From Klebsiella pneumoniae (GTDB taxonomy: Bacteria > Pseudomonadota > Gammaproteobacteria > Ga0077536), in NCBI GenBank assembly GCA_945876945.1, contig CAMCQE010000028.1, positions 1 to 34,233 of the forward strand: 34,233 bases of DNA, written 5' to 3'. Positions 916-31,593 of this stretch are shown piece after piece (position 1 is the first letter of the stretch; the number at the start of each line of letters is the position of its first letter). The position numbers and the translations under genes are program-made. A model generated the notes under the pieces. The model was not told the DNA's origin. It did not search any database and saw only the letters and a list, made by a program, of their open reading frames with translations.

Positions 916-2016
916 ATGGCCCTGAGCGCCAACCGATTTCAGCTCGCGGTGTTCGGCAGCAACGTCAGCCATGGCTGCACCATATCATCCGCCGCCGGCG
1001 GCATTGAAGTGAACTGGGACGAATCGCTCAGCATCGCGCGAACCGCCGATCGCATCGGGCTGGAAGCGCTCATTCCGGTGTGCCGCTGGAAAGGCTTTGG
1101 CGGCCCCAGCGAGTTCAATCACCGCAGCTTCGAGACCTGGACCTGGGCCGCCGGACTGGCGCAGGCCACGCAGCGCATTCACGTGTTTGCGACCACCGCC
1201 GTGGCTTCGATTCATCCGGTCCTCGCCGCCAAACAGGCGGCGACTATCGACCACATCTCGGGCGGACGCTTTGGCCTCAACGTGGTCGCTGGCTGGAACA
1301 GTCACGAGGTGGCCATGTTTGGCAAAACCCAATTTCCGCACGCCGAGCGTTATGCGATGACCGACGAATGGATGCGCTTCATTCACGAACTCTGGACCCG
1401 CGACGGCGAGTTCGATTTTGCGGGCACCTATTTCAACGGGCCGCGCTGCTACGCTGAGCCGAAGCCGCTGCAACGCCCCCGCCCGCCGGTGATGAGCGCG
1501 GGCGTTAGCCCGGCGGGCCGGCGCTTCGCCGCCCAGCATGCCGACATGAATTTCATCCTTGCGCCCAATCTCGAAATGGCGAGCGCCACGGTGGCCGATG
1601 TGCGCCGGATTGCGCGAGACGAGTTCGCGCGCGAGGTTGAGGTGTGGGGTAACGCGGCGCTGTTCATCGGCGCCACCGAAGCCGAGGCTAAGGACTACTA
1701 CCAACATGTGATTCACGAACAGGGCGATCTGGTGGCGGCCGGCAATTTGCTGGACACCTTCACCGCCGAATCTGGCAGCCAATTGCCCGACCCAGCGCTG
1801 CGTGAAAGCTATCTGCGCAACATGATGGCCGGCTATTCGGGCTTTCCCGTAGTGGGCACCGCCAGCAGCATCGCCGACTTCCTGCAGGCCATGGCCGATT
1901 GCGGCATGGCGGGCGCCACGCTGTCATGGCCGGATTACGCGAGCGGTCTCAAGCATCTTGAACGCGATCTGCTGCCAGAACTGCAAACGCGCGGCCTGCG
2001 CCAAGCCGCCGGCTAA
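916..2016 (+). CDS. LLM-class flavin-dependent monooxygenase (RutA/SfnG-like)
   Basis: A 366-residue protein with a clear Shine-Dalgarno (AAGGAG at 903-908, 7 nt before ATG). It has the bacterial luciferase-like TIM-barrel pattern throughout: an early substrate-pocket segment (RWKGFGGPSEFNHRSFE), then IHVFATTAVASIHPVLAAKQ, then the flavin-binding hallmark ATIDHISGGRFGLNVVAGW near residues 111-130, and the PVMSAGVSPAGRRFAAQHAD segment. The family uses reduced FMN and O2, usually with a partner flavin reductase, to oxidise small substrates. The GFGG and GGRFGLNVV segments are closest in my memory to pyrimidine monooxygenase RutA and dimethylsulfone monooxygenase SfnG. No rut or sfn genes and no flavin reductase are nearby, so the substrate is open. 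It stands alone between a divergent FecR gene and the convergent secretion operon, whose last gene it overlaps by 4 bp. Confidence 0.9.
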   Translation: MALSANRFQLAVFGSNVSHGCTISSAAGGIEVNWDESLSIARTADRIGLEALIPVCRWKGFGGPSEFNHRSFETWTWAAGLAQATQRIHVFATTAVASIHPVLAAKQAATIDHISGGRFGLNVVAGWNSHEVAMFGKTQFPHAERYAMTDEWMRFIHELWTRDGEFDFAGTYFNGPRCYAEPKPLQRPRPPVMSAGVSPAGRRFAAQHADMNFILAPNLEMASATVADVRRIARDEFAREVEVWGNAALFIGATEAEAKDYYQHVIHEQGDLVAAGNLLDTFTAESGSQLPDPALRESYLRNMMAGYSGFPVVGTASSIADFLQAMADCGMAGATLSWPDYASGLKHLERDLLPELQTRGLRQAAG

Positions 2017-3350
2017 GGCTCGCGCCCGCTCTCGGCGCGATAGCGTTGGAGCGGGCTGAGCAGAAAATCGAGGACTCGTCGCGTGCCCAGTTCAAAGTCG
2101 ACGGTAACGCTCATACCGGGCGTCACGCGTTGCGGCCGACCGTCAACGGACAAAGTCTCGTCATCGGGCCTGATCGTTACCACAAAGCGCAAGGCCCGAT
2201 CGGGGCCGGTCTGGGCGTCGGCGGCGATCTCGCGCACCACGCCTTGCAGCGTGCCGTAGCGGGTGAAATTGAAAGCATCCACCTTGATCCGCACCGGCTG
2301 CCCGCGCTGGATAAAGCCCCGATCGCGATTTTCCACCAGTGCCTCAATCGTCAAGGGCCCGTCCTCCGGCACGATTTGCATTAAAGCCTCAGCCGGATTC
2401 ACCACCGCGCCGGTTGCATGCAGGGCCAGCGCCTGCACCCGCCCCGCAACCGGGGCATACAGCGTCAGGCGGTCCCGTTGCGTGCGGGCCTTAATCACCG
2501 CGGCCCGCAGCGCCAGCAGCCGTTCTTCAAGCGCGGCTAACTCGCCTTGCCACCGCCGGGTGAACTCGGCGCGAGTCGCTTGCCTGCGCGCGTTCAGCCC
2601 GGCCAAGGCGGCTTGCGCCTCGCCTCGCTGCCCGTCCAGTGCCGCCAGCGACTGCACCAAGGCCAGCCGGTCCCGTTCGCGTTGGAGATATTGCACGCGT
2701 GGCACTACCCCTCGCGCCTGCAAGCTGGCGAGCGCGCGGGTTTCCTCCACCAGCAGCGCGAGGCTTTGTTGCTCTGCCCGCGTTTCCCGTGCGGTGGCGG
2801 CGAGCCGGCTCCGCTGCTGCTGTTGTTCGTTCGCGAGGGCCGCAAGCGCCGCTTTAAAAGCGAGCCATTCGGCCGCGAGGCGCGTCTGCGTATCCTCATT
2901 CGGCGCCCCTTGAGGCGCGGTCTGCGCAGGCGACCCAAGCTCGTTGCGGGCGGCGTGCAGCAGCGCCCGCAGCCGCCATTCGTCTTGCACCAGTCGCTGC
3001 CCGGTGTCCTGCAGTTGGCGTAGCTCCGCGTCCGCGATCGTGGCATCCAGCGTGAGCAGCGGCTGCCCCGCCAGCACCCGCTCGCCCTCTTCTACCCACA
3101 GTTCACTGACCACGCCAGGCACTAGCGACTGAATCGATTTGTTCTGCCCCACGACCACCACCTTGCCCGGCGCGTTCGCCAAGATTTCGATCCGGCTCAG
3201 CCACGCCCACAGCACCAGCCCCAGGCACAGCCCGCACAGCGCGAACATCAGGCCGCGCGCGATCCCTAAGACCGGTGTCTGCGCCAACGCCGCTGCGGGC
3301 GCTGAAAAATCCCGCCAGAGGGCCGGTCTGGTGTAACGCGCCGAATTCAA
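2013..3350 (-). CDS. Type I secretion membrane-fusion (HlyD-family) adaptor
   Basis: Periplasmic adaptor of a type I secretion system, bridging the inner-membrane ABC transporter to an outer-membrane TolC-type channel. A short cytoplasmic N-terminus precedes one membrane span (GLMFALCGLCLGLVLWAWL), then a lipoyl/barrel half (APGKVVVVGQNKSIQSLVPGVV), a long Ala/Gln/Arg-rich coiled-coil hairpin over roughly residues 95-270, and the returning HlyD barrel (APVAGRVQALALHATGAVV, then PLTIEALVENRDRGFI...GQPVRIKVDAF). Start choice is uncertain. I chose TTG at 3350, which overlaps the upstream ATPase stop as TTGA and leaves about 20 residues before the hydrophobic stretch; a GTG at 3389 in the same frame is the alternative (458 aa). 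Neither has a good Shine-Dalgarno, consistent with translational coupling. The gene ends by overlapping the convergent monooxygenase gene. Confidence 0.9.
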   Translation of the reverse strand: MNSARYTRPALWRDFSAPAAALAQTPVLGIARGLMFALCGLCLGLVLWAWLSRIEILANAPGKVVVVGQNKSIQSLVPGVVSELWVEEGERVLAGQPLLTLDATIADAELRQLQDTGQRLVQDEWRLRALLHAARNELGSPAQTAPQGAPNEDTQTRLAAEWLAFKAALAALANEQQQQRSRLAATARETRAEQQSLALLVEETRALASLQARGVVPRVQYLQRERDRLALVQSLAALDGQRGEAQAALAGLNARRQATRAEFTRRWQGELAALEERLLALRAAVIKARTQRDRLTLYAPVAGRVQALALHATGAVVNPAEALMQIVPEDGPLTIEALVENRDRGFIQRGQPVRIKVDAFNFTRYGTLQGVVREIAADAQTGPDRALRFVVTIRPDDETLSVDGRPQRVTPGMSVTVDFELGTRRVLDFLLSPLQRYRAESGREP

Positions 3351-5485
3351 GCGGCGAAGCCTGCCGCACCACGCGCCTGCAAGGCCCACAGCCGTGCGTA
3401 GGCCCCGCCGCGCGCTACCAATTCGGGATGCGTTCCCTGCTCAAGAATCTGCCCTTCATCGAGCACCAGAATGCGATCTGCCCGACACACCGCACTCAGG
3501 CGATGGGCAATCAACAGCACCGTTCTGCCGCGCGCAATCTGCCGCAGGTTCTGGTTGATGATCTGTTCGGTGTCGTAGTCGAGTGCCGAGGTCGCCTCGT
3601 CGAGAATCAACAAGCGAGGGTCGGTGACCAAGGCCCGTGCCAACGCAATGCGTTGCCGCTGCCCGCCCGACAGGCCCACGCCCTGCTCGCCCACCATGGT
3701 GTCGTAGCCTTCCGGCAAACCCAGAATGAACTCGTGCGCCCCAGCGAGTTGCGCGGCGGCGACGATGCTTGCCATCGGCATGCCGGGCTCTCGTAGCGCG
3801 ATGTTCTCGCGCACGCTGCGATTGAATAAACGGTTCTCCTGCAGCACCACGCCGATCTGGCGCCGCAACCACTGCGGATCTAACAGCGCGAGATTTTGGC
3901 CATCGAGCAGGATGCGTCCACCTTGCGGCACGTGCAGACGCTGCAGAAGGCCGGCGATGGTGCTTTTGCCCGAACCCGACGGCCCCACCAGCGCCAGCAC
4001 GGTGCCACGCCGACACTCAAAGCTGAGCCCGCGCAAGATGTCCGGCCCCTGTGGCCGATAGCGAAACTGCACCGCCTCAAACGCGATCTGGCCTTGCATC
4101 GGGGGCTGCTGGCCGTGGCTGGCAATGCGTTCAGGTTCCGGCAAGGCGTGCATCAAGGTGCCAAGCCGCTTGAGCGAGACGCCCGCCTGCTGGAGTTCCT
4201 GCCAACACTGCGCGAGGCGCAAGACCGGTTGCGCGATCCGCGCCGCGATCAGGTTGAAACCCACCAACTCGCCCACCGTGAGCGCACCGCTCATGACGAG
4301 ACGCGCGCCCAGCCACAGCGTGGCGACCGTGGTGAGTTTTTGCAGAAAGCTCATGCCCTGCGTAAAGAGACTCGTCACCCCGGAGGCCGACTGGCTGGCA
4401 AGGCCCGAGGCCACCAGCAGTTCGTCCCAGCGTCTGGTGTGCGCGACTTCAACAGCCGCGGCCTTGAGGGTTGCGATACCGCTGACAGATTCCACCAGAA
4501 ACGCCTGCGCCTCGGCGCTCCGCGCGTGGCGGTCTTCGAGGCGAGCGCGAAAAATCGGCGTGAAAAACAGGGTCATCAGCACCTGCAGGACCAGCCCTAC
4601 CGCCACCACCGCCGTGAGGCTGGCGTGATAGCAGAGCAGCAGCGCGAAAAAGCCGCCCGCGAACAGCAGGTCGATGACGAGCATCAGCGCCGGGCCGGTG
4701 AGAAACGCCCGCAAATGCTCCATTTCACGCACACAGGCCACCGTATCGCCCACCCGCCTTGCTTCAAACCAGGCCAAAGGCAGGCGCAGGAGATGCCGCC
4801 AAACGCGCGCGCCCAGCGCGACATCGAGGCGGGTCGCGGTGTGCAGTAAAAGATGCTGCCGGAGCGCGCCAAGCACAATCTCGAAACCACTGCACAGCAG
4901 GAGTCCCACGCACAGCACGTCCAGCGTGGAGGGCCGCTGATAGGCCAGCACCTTGTCGATCACGACCTGAAAAAACAGCGGTGCCACGAGCGACAGCAGT
5001 TGCAGAAAACCGGTGGCGATGAGCACTTCGAGCAGCGCTGCGCGATGACGGCGCAGGATGGGCCACCACCAGCCGCGACCCGCGTTGTCGGTCTCCCCGG
5101 GGCCGCGCGAGCGGGGATGTGCCAACAACACCTCGCCCTGCCATTGACCGAGAAAAGCCTCCCGCGCGACGACGGTGGGCGCCGCGCCGGGCGCCTGGAT
5201 GAGCACCTGATCCGACTGTAGTCCCGCCAGCACCACGTGCTCGCCGTTGGCGAGTGGCGCGAGCACAGGAAACGGCAGGTGCGGCAGCTGTTCGGGTGCC
5301 GGCCGCACCCACTTCGCCTTCAGTCCAAGCTGCCGTGCGGCCTCACACAAGGCGGGTTTACTGAGCGGCTCGCCAACCTCGCCGGAAGCCTCGCGGAGCG
5401 CGCTGGCCTCGGCGGGCACGCCGTGCAGCCGTGCCATGAGCACCAGGCCCTGCAGCCCGCTGTCCTGCGATCTGGGCACCGACAT
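3347..5485 (-). CDS. Type I secretion ABC transporter (HlyB-like, inactive C39-like domain)
   Basis: A 712-residue inner-membrane exporter that powers one-step secretion of (usually RTX) proteins. Order: a C39-like N-terminal domain (~1-130); an ABC transmembrane domain (~150-440); an ATPase domain (~465-705) with Walker A GPSGSGKS at 501-508, Q-loop VVLQEN, signature LSGGQ at 605-609, Walker B LLILDE at 625-630 and the switch His in IAHRLS at ~661. In the N-terminal domain the position that is catalytic Cys in peptidase C39 is Ser9 (motif QDSGLQG), like the non-cleaving domain of HlyB. It therefore probably recognises an uncleaved substrate rather than trimming a double-glycine leader. I chose ATG 5485 because a perfect AGGAGGT lies 8 nt upstream; an in-frame start at 5572 lacks this. 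It overlaps the adaptor gene by 4 bp. No RTX substrate or TolC homologue is in the window. Confidence 0.95.
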   Translation of the reverse strand: MSVPRSQDSGLQGLVLMARLHGVPAEASALREASGEVGEPLSKPALCEAARQLGLKAKWVRPAPEQLPHLPFPVLAPLANGEHVVLAGLQSDQVLIQAPGAAPTVVAREAFLGQWQGEVLLAHPRSRGPGETDNAGRGWWWPILRRHRAALLEVLIATGFLQLLSLVAPLFFQVVIDKVLAYQRPSTLDVLCVGLLLCSGFEIVLGALRQHLLLHTATRLDVALGARVWRHLLRLPLAWFEARRVGDTVACVREMEHLRAFLTGPALMLVIDLLFAGGFFALLLCYHASLTAVVAVGLVLQVLMTLFFTPIFRARLEDRHARSAEAQAFLVESVSGIATLKAAAVEVAHTRRWDELLVASGLASQSASGVTSLFTQGMSFLQKLTTVATLWLGARLVMSGALTVGELVGFNLIAARIAQPVLRLAQCWQELQQAGVSLKRLGTLMHALPEPERIASHGQQPPMQGQIAFEAVQFRYRPQGPDILRGLSFECRRGTVLALVGPSGSGKSTIAGLLQRLHVPQGGRILLDGQNLALLDPQWLRRQIGVVLQENRLFNRSVRENIALREPGMPMASIVAAAQLAGAHEFILGLPEGYDTMVGEQGVGLSGGQRQRIALARALVTDPRLLILDEATSALDYDTEQIINQNLRQIARGRTVLLIAHRLSAVCRADRILVLDEGQILEQGTHPELVARGGAYARLWALQARGAAGFAA

Positions 5486-5500: not shown

Positions 5501-5602
5501 TGCTTGAGAGGTCGGGGAGCGTGGCAGTGAGGGCGGGGTTGCGTCTCGCGCCGGACGGCGGGGCGGAGCCACACGGGAAAGATTCCCGCCGGCGACCGGA
5601 TG

Positions 5603-5634
5603 CTTGCGCCAATGGCGCGGCGCGCTGGCGCAAG
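5603..5634. repeat. Perfect 9-bp inverted repeat in intergenic region
   Basis: CTTGCGCCA (5603-5611) pairs perfectly with TGGCGCAAG (5626-5634) around a 14-nt loop. No T-run follows on either strand, so it is not a standard intrinsic terminator. It lies between the cloverleaf-like repeats and the secretion ATPase start. A smaller hairpin, CGGGAA/TTCCCG with a 3-nt loop, lies next to it at 5574-5588. Confidence 0.7.
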
Positions 5635-5651
5635 GGGGGCTTTGGAGCAGC

Positions 5652-5760
5652 GCTGAAGAAGTCCGTTAATGCGCTGCCGGCATTAACACTGCGGGCATCG
5701 AGGCCGGCGGCACAGCCAGTGCCGCCAGGCAGGCGCTGCCGTTGGCAGCGCCTCTTCAGC
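5652..5760 (-). other. Cloverleaf-forming set of nested perfect inverted repeats
   Basis: An outer pair GCTGAAGA (5652-5659) / TCTTCAGC (5753-5760) encloses three consecutive perfect hairpins: GTTAATGC/GCATTAAC (5665-5672 / 5680-5687, loop 7); GGCGGCAC/GTGCCGCC (5706-5713 / 5719-5726, loop 5); and AGGCGCTGCC/GGCAGCGCCT (5731-5740 / 5744-5753, loop 3). Position 5753 can belong to either the third hairpin or the outer stem. Read on the minus strand it begins 2 nt after the stop codon of the PfkB kinase, so it would be the 3' end of that mRNA or a long leader of the secretion genes (167 nt from its end to the ATG). Neither strand has a terminator-type T-run. It could be a structured RNA, a processing or stability element, or a REP-like DNA repeat. 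I saw no flanking target-site duplication. Confidence 0.7.
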
Positions 5761-5762
5761 CA

Positions 5763-6701
5763 TTACCAGTTGAGTTCGGTGCCGAACTCCCGCGCATAGC
5801 GCGCGGCAAACGCCATACGGGTGAAACGATGATTTTGCGTGCCGGCGTGCTCGATTTTGATCGCGCCCATCAGGCTCGCAATGCGCCCCGTCACCGACCA
5901 GTCCAAGCCATGCATCAAACCGTAAAGCAGGCCCGCGCGATAGGCGTCGCCGCAGCCGGTCGGGTCGCGCAACTGGGCAGGTTTCGCCGCTGGAATCTCC
6001 AGCGTGCCGTGATTGCGATACACCACCGAGCCTTCGCCACCGCGGGTCACCACCAGCGCCTGCACGTGTTCGCTGATTTCCGCCAGCGTCCAGCCCGTGC
6101 GCTCCTGCATCAACTCGGACTCGTAGTCGTTCACGGTCACGTAGCTGGCCTGCATGATGAACTGCTTGAGGTCGTCGCCGTTGAACATCGGCAGGCCCTG
6201 ACCCGGATCGAAAATGAAGGGGATGCCGGCGTCTACAAACTGCCGGGCGTGCTCAATCATGCCCTGACGACCGTCCGGGGCCACGATACCCAGGGTGGCG
6301 CCGGCCACATCGCTCACGCGATTGAGATGCGCCTGTTCCATCGCGCCGGGATGAAACGCGGTGATTTGGTTGTCGTCGAGATCGGTAGTGATGAACGCCT
6401 GGGCGGTCATGGTGTTTTCCATCACCCGCACATGGCTGCGATTGATCCCGAAGCTATCCATCCACTGCGCATAGGGTTCGAAGTCGATGCCCACCGCGCC
6501 CATCGGAATGGGCTCGCCGCCGAGCAGCTTGAGGTTGTAGGCGATGTTGCCGGCGCAGCCGCCGAACTCACGACGCAACTGGGGCACGAGGAAAGACACA
6601 TTCAGGATGTGGATCTTGTCCGGCAGGATGTGATTCTTGAACTGGTCCTGAAAGACCATGATGTTGTCGAAGGCAAAAGAGCCACAAATGAGCGCGGACA
6701 T
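5763..6701 (-). CDS. PfkB-family carbohydrate/adenosine-type kinase
   Basis: A 312-residue ribokinase-fold kinase. The family signature is DPTGCGDAYRAG near residues 243-254 (catalytic Asp in GCGDA, anion hole GCG), and the substrate-binding GG motif is EFGGCAGNIAYNLKLLG near residues 45-61. The N-terminus (ALICGSFAFDNIMVF) fits the bacterial 'carbohydrate kinase' subgroup often annotated as adenosine kinase; it would phosphorylate a nucleoside or sugar with ATP in the cytosol. The sequence alone does not settle adenosine against ribose or another sugar. It lies 62 bp after the adenylate-cyclase-like gene on the same strand, which would fit a role in adenosine/AMP metabolism, but that is inference. 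Its stop is followed at once by the cloverleaf-like repeats. ATG 6701 is the natural start, with the first beta strand right after it. Confidence 0.85.
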   Translation of the reverse strand: MSALICGSFAFDNIMVFQDQFKNHILPDKIHILNVSFLVPQLRREFGGCAGNIAYNLKLLGGEPIPMGAVGIDFEPYAQWMDSFGINRSHVRVMENTMTAQAFITTDLDDNQITAFHPGAMEQAHLNRVSDVAGATLGIVAPDGRQGMIEHARQFVDAGIPFIFDPGQGLPMFNGDDLKQFIMQASYVTVNDYESELMQERTGWTLAEISEHVQALVVTRGGEGSVVYRNHGTLEIPAAKPAQLRDPTGCGDAYRAGLLYGLMHGLDWSVTGRIASLMGAIKIEHAGTQNHRFTRMAFAARYAREFGTELNW

Positions 6702-6763: not shown

Positions 6764-9700
6764 TTAGCGGTCGCCGTGTGGCCCCGGCGGGTTGCCCGCC
6801 GGCCGCGCCACATGCCTGTCGAGTTCACTTTTGGCCTGCCGCATAAACCCGAGTTCGAGCCCTTCGTCAAAGCTGGCGTACACCCGCCCTAGTGCCTCGG
6901 CGGTGTCCGCCGCGGGCGGATAGGCTCTGGAAAGCCTTAGCTGCGAGCTCGCAATGCGGAGCTGGGCCAAGCGATTGTGCTGTTCCTCAGCCACCGTCAT
7001 CGCCTGCCGCCAGCGCTGGTCGGCCTCTGCAAGATTGCCGTGCGCCATCGCGACTTCGCCGCGCAGGCGCAGGACTTCGGATTCCAGCCAACGCTCGCTG
7101 ATGCCGCGGTGAGTCAGCAAAGGGTCATCGAGAGTGGCTTCAACCTCATCAATCCGTTCGAAGAACAGCAGGGTATTGGCCTGAACCATCAGAAAAATAT
7201 GCAGGCCGATGGTGGCGCCGCTGGCGCGCCAGCGCGCAATGGCGTCTTGCACCTCGTCAAGGCCTTCAGGTAGACCCTGTCTCGCCCGGGCCCAACCGCG
7301 CACCACTTCGCCGGCCACCTGCAGATAGGGGAAGCCGCGTTCCCCGGCCAATGCCACCACTCGCGTTGCCCAGTGCTCGGCCTGCTCAATCTGCAAGAAA
7401 AAATGACTGTTCCACATCGCCGCACCGTAGGCGAACACACGGGAGAACGGATGGTCGATGGCCTCAGCGCGCGCCACGGCGCTCGCCAGTTGCGCCTGCG
7501 CCTGTTCGGGATAGCCCAGAAAACCCAAGGTCCAGCCCAGAATGCCGCGATTCGCCACGTCGGGGTCCTGGCCAAACTGCGCCACCAGCCCGGCGTGTGC
7601 GTCGTGCTTGAACAGACTCACCGCCTGCTCCATATGCCGCCTGGCGACGACGAAATTGCCCGTCCAATAGGCGTTATTGCCGAGCAGCCGGTGCGCCTCC
7701 AGCAACAGCGCCGAGTCCTGCGACAGTGCGGCAAGGTCGAGCAGTTCCTGCCCTATTCGGGCCGCCTCCAGCATCTCGCCCTGCCCCTGCCGGAATTGCC
7801 ACAGGCCACGCAGCGCGCGAAACAGTTCCGCGTGATTACCCACCTGCCGACACAGCTCGCTGGCGCGCGCATAGGCCAACTGCACTTCCGGCGCGGCATA
7901 GCTGCGCGCGGTGGCCGCCGCGGTGCCGAGTTCCAGCTGCAGTCGCAGTTCGCAGCGCGCGAGCGCGTCGTCTGGCGGGAGTAAAGCGACCAGCTTGAGC
8001 GCCTCGCGAAAGAAGTGCATGGCTTCAGCGTTCACGTAGGCGTCGGCGGCCCGATTGCCGGCCCGCTCGTAGTAATCAATGGCTTTCAGCAAGGCCTCAG
8101 CGTCGGGCACGCCGTCCTCGCCGGCCTTGCGCCAATGGTAGGCCAGCGTGGTAAAGCCTTGCGCAAGGTCGTCGGCGTGTTCCTGTTCGTACCACAGGGC
8201 CAGCGCCCGGTGCAGCTGGCGCCGTTGGGAATAGAGCATCAGCTGATAGGCGCTATCCTGAATCAGGCCGTTGCGGAAGGCGTAGGTGAGGTCGAGATCG
8301 GGGCTCAGTCCGTCACGGCGGCGCCCTGGCCGACGGAGCATCTCGTGCGAGCAGAGTTCACCCAGATGGGCGTCCAGGGCCGTCTCGCCTAAGGCCATGG
8401 GATAAATCGAAAACAGGGCACGGCGCGGGAAACTGCGCCCAATCACGCTGGCCACCTTCAGCGTCAACTGGGCCGGCGCTGGCAGACGGTCGATGCTCGC
8501 GTTGATAAGCCCTTCCAGCGTGCCGGCGATTTGCCATTCGTCCGCCTTCCCCGCTTCGGCGGCGATGGCCAGCGCGCCGTCGTTGAGCGTCAACACCCCA
8601 CGATGCAGCAAGGCATTCAGCAAGACCTCGGCAAAATAGGGGTTGCCATCGCTGCGCTCCCAGAGCAAGGCCGACACCGCGGCGGGAATATCCGCCAGCG
8701 CGAGCTTGGCGCTCAGCACGCGCGCCAGCGCCTCGCGATCCAGCGGGCCAAGGCGCAGATGCGCAGCGCCAGCGTTCTCTACAAAGGTCTGAAAATCACC
8801 GGCCTGTCGTCGCCGTAGGCCGAGCACCATCTGCAATCCGGGCAAGGCCGCGTGCACGTGCGCGAGCAGGGCAATCGAGGCGGCGTCAAGCCACTGCACG
8901 TCGCTTAGCGCGAGCAGCAGCGCGCCGCGTTCGCCATGGCGCTGCAGGATGGCCACGACCAGTCGGTGCAGGGCCTCCACGCGAGCGCGAGCGCTGAGCT
9001 TGGCGGTGACGTCGGTCTCTGGCCACTCGAGCGCGAACACCGGTCCCAGTAAGGGCGCTTGCGCCGCCAGCGCGGGGTCGTCGGCCAGCGACAACAGCAG
9101 GCTGGACCGAAGATTCTCGGTCTCGCCCGTGGTCTGATTGATCTTCAGACAGGCGGCCAACAGCTGCCGCCAGACGAAATAAGGCGTGTTGGCGTCGATG
9201 GCATCGCCCGCGCTGGTGAGGACCTGATATCCCGTGCTCGTGGCATACGCAGTCAAACCATCGAGGAGCGCACGCGACCCCAGGCCAAGCTCGGCTTCCA
9301 GCACCATCAGTCGTGCAGCATCGGCATCACGGCGTTCAAGGAAAGCGCGCAAGCTGGCGCGCTCGATGTCGCGCCCGTCGAAACCGCTTCCGGGCGCTTC
9401 GGTCTGCTGCGCAGGCTCACGGCGGCGGCCGGGTTGAAAGATCGCGACCGGCGCCGCCTTGCCCTTCAAGCGCACGGGTGGCAGCGCCAAACAGTCAATC
9501 CGTTCACCCGCGGCGGCCGCGGTGGGGGCGTCGCAAAGAATGCCGCCCTTGGCGGCCACCATCAGGCGGGCCGCCAGATTCACCACGTCGCCCATGACGG
9601 TGTATTCGCGTCGCCCGTCGCTGCCCACAGCGCCACAAAACGCGGTACCGGTCGTGACCCCAACCGAAGAGCGAAATCCGAGCGCAGTCAGGCCTTCATG

Positions 9701-10702
9701 CATGGCCTGCGCGGCGCGCAAGGCACGCTCGGGATCATCCTCATGGGACAGCGGCGGCAGTCCCAGCACTGCAATCAAGGAGGCACCCTTATCGTCCACG
9801 CTGATTTTGTTGATGCTGCCCTCGAACCGGTATAGCGCGGCCTGCAAGGCACAGGTCGCCTGCTGCGCCTTCTCGAGCGGGGTGTCGTAGGTGAAATCCG
9901 GCAGATTGATAAAGACCACCGAAATTGATCGCAACTCCGCGAGCCAGTCGGTTTGACCGGCGTCGAGTCGCGCGCGAATGGCGCCGGGAATAAATTGGCG
10001 CAGGGCATCCAGGGTTTCAGGCAGCGCCGCCACCCGCGTGAGCGGCGCCGTCATTGGCGGCGCCTCACTCGCCACGAGCCGCATCACGCCCTGCGCCAGC
10101 GCAGTGGCCGCCGGCTTGCGCGCCAGCAAGGCCCAGGCCTCTGCGGAGAGCACCACGTCCCCCGGTTCGGCCTCGCCGTTAGCAACGCCGACCTGGCTCA
10201 GCGGCGCGCCAGCGATCAGCAACTCCCAACGTTTGAACACGCCGCCCAGCTGCATGGCGGCAATCTGTCCGGCGCCGATGGCCACCTTGAGCGAGAGCGC
10301 TACCTCGTCACCGACCTCAAACCGATGCAGCCGGGCCTGAATCCGGCGGGCGCTATCCGCGACGGTTTGCGCCAGCGCCGGCAGCTCGTCGTCGCGCTGC
10401 GCGGGCCACAGGGCGAGCAAGGCATCGCCGGCGAACTTCACCACATCGCCACCGGCCTCGGTGATGAGCGCGATGAGTTCGCCAAAGTAGGTGTTGAGAT
10501 AGCGTGTGAGGTCTTCGGCGCCCGAGGGACCGCGCGCCGCGAGGCGTTCTGTCAGCGCGGTAAACCCAGAAATGTCGGCGAACAAGACAAGGGCAGGAAA
10601 GTTTTCGGCGCTGGGTTCATCCAGCGAAGTGAGCCCGGCGTTGTAACGCCGGATAACCAACGAGGGTACGAAACTGGCAAGCGTAGGCAGGAGACCGGTC
10701 AT
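6764..10702 (-). CDS. Soluble-adenylyl-cyclase-like protein: two cyclase domains, AAA/STAND module, TPR-like tail
   Basis: A 1312-residue cytosolic protein. Class III cyclase domain 1 (~35-195) has FADISGFTALTE with metal Asp43 and GGDVVKFAGDALLALW with Lys89 and Asp93. Domain 2 (~255-420) lacks the first metal Asp (SVVFINLPDF) but has VNLAARL with Asn375 and Arg379, the transition-state pair that domain 1 lacks. The two halves should therefore form one composite site, as in mammalian sAC (ADCY10), which these segments resemble closely. Then comes an AAA/STAND-type region (~440-700) with a Walker B-like LALSDVQWLDAAS near 597-609. At the expected P-loop (469-478) the sequence is EAELGLGSRA: no Lys and no following Ser/Thr, so ATP binding there is doubtful. 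The rest (~800-1300) is helical TPR-like. Expected product is cAMP; bicarbonate control is only an analogy. It lies 60 bp after the diguanylate cyclase on the same strand. Confidence 0.9.
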   Translation of the reverse strand: MTGLLPTLASFVPSLVIRRYNAGLTSLDEPSAENFPALVLFADISGFTALTERLAARGPSGAEDLTRYLNTYFGELIALITEAGGDVVKFAGDALLALWPAQRDDELPALAQTVADSARRIQARLHRFEVGDEVALSLKVAIGAGQIAAMQLGGVFKRWELLIAGAPLSQVGVANGEAEPGDVVLSAEAWALLARKPAATALAQGVMRLVASEAPPMTAPLTRVAALPETLDALRQFIPGAIRARLDAGQTDWLAELRSISVVFINLPDFTYDTPLEKAQQATCALQAALYRFEGSINKISVDDKGASLIAVLGLPPLSHEDDPERALRAAQAMHEGLTALGFRSSVGVTTGTAFCGAVGSDGRREYTVMGDVVNLAARLMVAAKGGILCDAPTAAAAGERIDCLALPPVRLKGKAAPVAIFQPGRRREPAQQTEAPGSGFDGRDIERASLRAFLERRDADAARLMVLEAELGLGSRALLDGLTAYATSTGYQVLTSAGDAIDANTPYFVWRQLLAACLKINQTTGETENLRSSLLLSLADDPALAAQAPLLGPVFALEWPETDVTAKLSARARVEALHRLVVAILQRHGERGALLLALSDVQWLDAASIALLAHVHAALPGLQMVLGLRRRQAGDFQTFVENAGAAHLRLGPLDREALARVLSAKLALADIPAAVSALLWERSDGNPYFAEVLLNALLHRGVLTLNDGALAIAAEAGKADEWQIAGTLEGLINASIDRLPAPAQLTLKVASVIGRSFPRRALFSIYPMALGETALDAHLGELCSHEMLRRPGRRRDGLSPDLDLTYAFRNGLIQDSAYQLMLYSQRRQLHRALALWYEQEHADDLAQGFTTLAYHWRKAGEDGVPDAEALLKAIDYYERAGNRAADAYVNAEAMHFFREALKLVALLPPDDALARCELRLQLELGTAAATARSYAAPEVQLAYARASELCRQVGNHAELFRALRGLWQFRQGQGEMLEAARIGQELLDLAALSQDSALLLEAHRLLGNNAYWTGNFVVARRHMEQAVSLFKHDAHAGLVAQFGQDPDVANRGILGWTLGFLGYPEQAQAQLASAVARAEAIDHPFSRVFAYGAAMWNSHFFLQIEQAEHWATRVVALAGERGFPYLQVAGEVVRGWARARQGLPEGLDEVQDAIARWRASGATIGLHIFLMVQANTLLFFERIDEVEATLDDPLLTHRGISERWLESEVLRLRGEVAMAHGNLAEADQRWRQAMTVAEEQHNRLAQLRIASSQLRLSRAYPPAADTAEALGRVYASFDEGLELGFMRQAKSELDRHVARPAGNPPGPHGDR

Positions 10703-31519: not shown

Positions 31520-31593
31520 TGGGGAATCGTCTAACGGTAGGACAACGGACTCTGACTCCGTCAGTCTAGGTTCGAATCCTAGTTCCCCAGCCA
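31520..31593 (+). tRNA. tRNA-Gln (anticodon CTG)
   Basis: A full cloverleaf is visible: acceptor TGGGGAA pairing with TTCCCCA, D-arm with GGTAGGAC, anticodon stem ACGGA/TCCGT around loop CTCTGAC with anticodon CTG at 31552-31554 (reads CAG, Gln), T-arm CTAGG/CCTAG with loop TTCGAAT, discriminator G, and an encoded CCA end. The weak first T-A acceptor pair is usual for tRNA-Gln. Only one tRNA is present here. Confidence 0.97.

Follow-up and report, generated by a model that had tools for sequence, protein, structure and literature searches.

Described systems and the locus

REPs are palindromes of 20-40 bp (PMC3733652), and the wider group of REP/BIME repeats (PMC3733652, PMC2817692) shares with the element described here its position, both being palindromes that lie between genes, next to a 3' end; unlike those repeats, this element is present in a single copy without a dispersed family. 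Template switching creates and repairs perfect hairpins (PMC8794818), and here too the comparison of sister species shows perfect stems emerging or being replaced, one stem of the sister looking as if a flanking arm had been copied in inverted orientation, although at this locus the process is deduced from two sequences and the segment has no outgroup. A closer likeness is offered by the U-less stem-loops of bacterial mRNA 3' ends: the locus has a GC-rich perfect hairpin 9 nt past a stop codon, no T-run, and similar gene ends in the same genome, but here that hairpin is followed in a row by another two and by an outer repeat, and the likeness is read from sequence.

The window (the whole stretch of DNA analysed, 34,233 nt) comes from an uncultured gammaproteobacterium, termed G000, whose genome of 3.8 Mb is assembled in 219 contigs and whose class was judged from the best relatives of its kinase. 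The minus strand carries a PfkB-family kinase gene, then a spacer of 277 nt and then a type I secretion operon. The 109-base element (5652-5760) occupies the kinase-proximal part of this spacer; as originally described, it starts 2 nt past the kinase stop codon (5765-5763) on the minus strand and precedes the secretion operon, the HlyB-type and HlyD genes lying downstream on the same strand. The features of the locus are the following.

2013..3389, minus strand: HlyD-family periplasmic adaptor of type I secretion, following the permease gene in the operon (TIGR01843, 332.3 bits, cut-off 208.65)
3347..5485, minus strand: type I secretion permease/ATPase, HlyB-type with a C39-like N-terminal domain (TIGR01846, 832.9 bits, cut-off 725.55)
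5574..5588, minus strand: palindrome CGGGAATCTTTCCCG, ~100 nt upstream of the ATG of the HlyB-type transporter, outside the reported element
5603..5634, minus strand: H4 hairpin, CTTGCGCCA-N14-TGGCGCAAG, 9 bp arms 5603-5611/5626-5634, outside the reported element
5652-5659 with 5753-5760, strand unassigned: outer stem, GCTGAAGA/TCTTCAGC, 8 nt, closing the proposed four-way junction
5665..5687, minus strand: H3 hairpin, GTTAATGC-CGGCAGC-GCATTAAC, 8 nt arms 5665-5672/5680-5687, loop of 7, species-specific
5706..5726, minus strand: H2 hairpin, GGCGGCAC-TGGCT-GTGCCGCC, 8 nt arms 5706-5713/5719-5726, loop of 5
5731..5753, minus strand: H1 hairpin, AGGCGCTGCC-AAC-GGCAGCGCCT, 10 nt arms 5731-5740/5744-5753, loop of 3, 9 nt past the kinase stop
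5763..6701, minus strand: PfkB-family kinase gene, 5' of the spacer (PF00294, E=7.7e-39)

Orthologues of the kinase are present in most relatives. The start of the HlyB-type transporter was placed at the ATG at 5485-5483, 3' of AAGGAGGT, and not at the GTG at 5572; the sister species, G001, has the same start. Upstream of the kinase, on the minus strand, lies a gene (6764-10702) for a 1312-aa protein that combines a guanylate/adenylate cyclase domain, an AAA ATPase and TPR repeats.

The inverted repeats and their identity

The four perfect inverted repeats of the original prediction were all recovered exactly (outer 8; inner 8, 8 and 10; loops of 7, 5 and 3), and two further features, H4 and the palindrome at 5574-5588, were missing from its list. 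The nested four-way junction that these repeats were thought to form stands as far as the repeats themselves are concerned, but they cannot all pair at full length: the outer stem and H1 both need T5753, so at most 7+10 or 8+9 pairs can form there.

The element was said to match nothing recognised, and no Rfam family reached its gathering score; a permissive scan returned chance-level matches only (E 2.5 and 3.5). In that scan, ncS01 (RF02865, Burkholderia sRNA 1) aligned over its full length to 5649-5757 on the plus strand, but it scored 14.5 bits where the gathering score is 58, and its E value of 3.5 is what chance would give. Neither ARAGORN nor Rfam placed a tRNA or tmRNA at the site, the only tRNA being a tRNA-Gln at 31520, in line with the view that the element is not a tRNA. 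Nor is it an intrinsic terminator, there being no T-run: on the minus strand, H1 is followed by GCCTGG and H2 by GGCCTC. The simple sites of attC have the consensus GTTRRRY / RYYYAAC. The H3 arms (GTTAATG and CATTAAC) do not fit this consensus, and the neighbours are a kinase gene and a secretion operon, so that attC was also rightly set aside. A decayed coding fragment was considered as well; the indels of 1 nt and 8 nt between G000 and G001 within the element would argue against coding constraint.

Distribution among relatives

Searches of its own genome for the 109-bp sequence revealed a single copy and, even at E<=10, no second one beyond short chance matches, which excludes the dispersed REP-like repeat that had been put forward as one possibility. 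Among the 36 genomes of the family (the order comprises the same 36), a homologue was found only in the sister species G001, and the plasmid and phage records searched contained no match. Four other genomes (G047, G014, G026 and G009) gave short matches of 19-32 nt, the size of a hairpin.

The spacer between the kinase and the secretion genes measures 277 nt in G000 and 285 nt in G001, versus 129-159 nt in eight relatives. Judged from these lengths, the element is part of a lineage-specific expansion of the spacer by ~120 nt.

Comparison with the sister species

In G001, the outer stem has 2 of its 8 pairs broken and H3 has lost 4 of 8, the latter because the surrounding segment (5660-5698) has been replaced: it retains 46% identity to G001 with an 8-nt gap, versus flanks of ~90%. 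All 8 pairs of H2 and all 9 pairs of H4 are unchanged, with one substitution and a 1-nt indel in the H2 loop and one substitution in the H4 loop. H1 keeps 8 of 10 pairs unchanged, one having become G-U and one being broken. The compensatory changes expected of a conserved fold did not appear in this comparison, whose depth of one homologue is weak: the outer stem and H3 are broken, H2 and H4 are invariant and hence uninformative, and the change in H1 is one-sided. The loss of the outer stem and H3 in the sister contradicts a conserved cloverleaf.

Divergence was compared with that of four-fold sites in both flanking genes, 73 of 575 of which differ between the two species (12.7%). The spacer minus the replaced segment changes at the same rate (27/238, 11%; p=0.64), and the replaced segment is substituted at 21 of 39 positions (p=6e-9 versus the four-fold sites). 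The stem arms of H1, H2 and H4 have 2 changes in 54 positions versus 25 in 184 elsewhere, a borderline difference (p=0.05). The G001 spacer is folded at least as strongly as that of G000 (z -4.7), but the fold is different. There, the replaced segment supplies CGCTGAACAA, which pairs locally with TTGTTTAGCG, the homologue of the 3' arm of the outer stem.

Folding and chance expectation

On the minus strand, that of the kinase mRNA, the minimum free energy (MFE) fold includes each of the four stems except H3, while the plus-strand MFE fold is the cloverleaf, slightly altered; the corresponding z values are -3.3 and -3.9, and the whole spacer is highly folded. In a 434-kb sample of the genome, which served for the surveys of hairpin density and of gene ends, perfect hairpins of at least 8 bp occur at 0.265 per kb, versus 0.260 per kb under a Markov model. 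Three of them within 110 nt are found once in the 434 kb, at this site. Such clusters appeared 0 times in 20 Mb of simulated genome-like sequence (order 3) and twice in a further 20 Mb modelled on the composition of the spacer itself, so the three-hairpin cluster exceeds what base composition would give under models that ignore palindrome-making mutational processes. The original statement that the arrangement is very unlikely by chance is borne out to that extent, the null models representing composition only.

Interpretation of the element

We conclude that the element is most likely a rapidly changing piece of ordinary intergenic spacer, because it is single-copy, is confined to this species and its sister, and has lost the cloverleaf fold in the latter. 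In the fuller reading that we favour, and which we consider probable, the lineage-specific expansion would hold local hairpins independent of one another and not an evolved four-way junction; H1, probably with H2, would be a U-less hairpin at which the kinase mRNA ends, and the remaining stems, H3 and the outer one, would be incidental. Three observations lead us to read H1, probably together with H2, in this way. It is a stable hairpin located just past the kinase stop, at 9 nt; of the 18 gene 3' ends that fold strongly in the 434-kb sample, in which ORF calls were crude, 16 are without TTTT; and in two members of the genus, G004 and G008 (L016 and L015), a U-tailed terminator-like hairpin (AGCCCG..CGGGCTTTCT) lies directly past the kinase stop, where G000 has H1. 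By position and by analogy, H1/H2 might block 3'-to-5' exonucleases or mark the end left by Rho-dependent termination, and the other GC-rich hairpins that lack T-runs at gene ends of this genome may act likewise. The original suggestion of a 3'-UTR stability or processing element is possible for H1 and H2 only. As for H3 and the outer stem, they most likely arose from short inverted-copy (template-switch) mutations, given that the CGCTGAACAA/TTGTTTAGCG stem of G001 is what would result if the flanking arm had been copied in inverted orientation; with two sequences and no outgroup for the segment, the direction and the mechanism of the switch are our inference.

The main rival is that the hairpins have no function at all, the spacer being neutral and GC-rich and replication errors continually making and breaking palindromes in it. 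The divergence of the spacer at the four-fold-site rate, the outright replacement of the H3 segment in G001 and the absence of the expansion from all other relatives examined speak for this explanation, but the H1, H2 and H4 stems have changed slightly less than other positions (p=0.05) and both species are strongly folded, so we hold it to be a possible but clearly less probable account. The slower arms also count against our favoured reading, as does the strong folding of G001, since structure as such may be selected despite different stems. The spacer could accordingly be selected for strong folding while its stems turn over by template switching, structure content mattering and not the particular fold; we give this little credence, but if it were true, the sister species would each keep an array of hairpins made of different hairpins.

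Also improbable is a role in a structured 5' leader of the type I secretion genes, in which alternative folds would control transcription or translation of the operon. The element does precede the operon and shares its strand, in a spacer that is highly folded throughout and carries a conserved palindrome whose distance from the ATG varies little; but that conserved part (5574-5588) is downstream of the element, the operon is likewise present in relatives that lack the 120-nt expansion, and no promoter-like site was found upstream when scored against the sigma-70 consensus only. The leader proposed originally is possible in principle, but the part of the spacer that is conserved lies outside the element. 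A previously undescribed four-way-junction RNA under selection, either a small RNA or a processing element, is very unlikely: four nested perfect repeats, the rarity of the three-hairpin cluster in simulations and a plus-strand MFE fold near the cloverleaf are set against the broken outer stem and H3 in the sole homologue (G001), the lack of any other homologue in the family and order, plasmids or phages, and the lack of an Rfam match at gathering score. More unlikely still is that a small mobile element, or a palindromic one of REP type, was inserted 3' of the kinase gene and left this remnant. The ~120 nt by which the spacer exceeds that of other genus members and a palindromic make-up recalling that of REPs would suit it, but there is no second copy in the genome, none in the family beyond G001 and none in the plasmids or phages, and hairpins are as dense in the genome as in simulated sequence.

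A conserved palindrome upstream of the secretion operon

On the evidence of the orthologous spacers, the palindrome at 5574-5588 is the conserved element of this intergenic region. Its core, GGGAA-N3-TTCCC, covers 5575-5587, and a loose form (GGGA-N3..7-TCCC) occurs in 9 of 10 orthologous spacers versus 0.28 expected by shuffling, at 101-103 nt from the transporter start in six of them and at 126-129 nt in three. Across the family, the strict form GGGAATNNTTCCCG was found 26 times, with varied neighbours, versus 4 for a reversed control, which preserves composition and not the palindrome. Within this genome, the loose pattern is not enriched (21 matches versus 21 for the control) and no regulon emerged from it. 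At L228, L229 and L233, the palindrome lies upstream of genes that, judged from their translations, are TonB-dependent-receptor-like; in some cases another GGGAA..TTCCC-like site is close by.

In summary, four nested perfect stems can still be species-specific, and one sister genome suffices to dissolve a cloverleaf. A useful by-product of the analysis is the conserved palindrome upstream of the HlyB-type secretion operon, which is a plausible regulator site and may be an operator.
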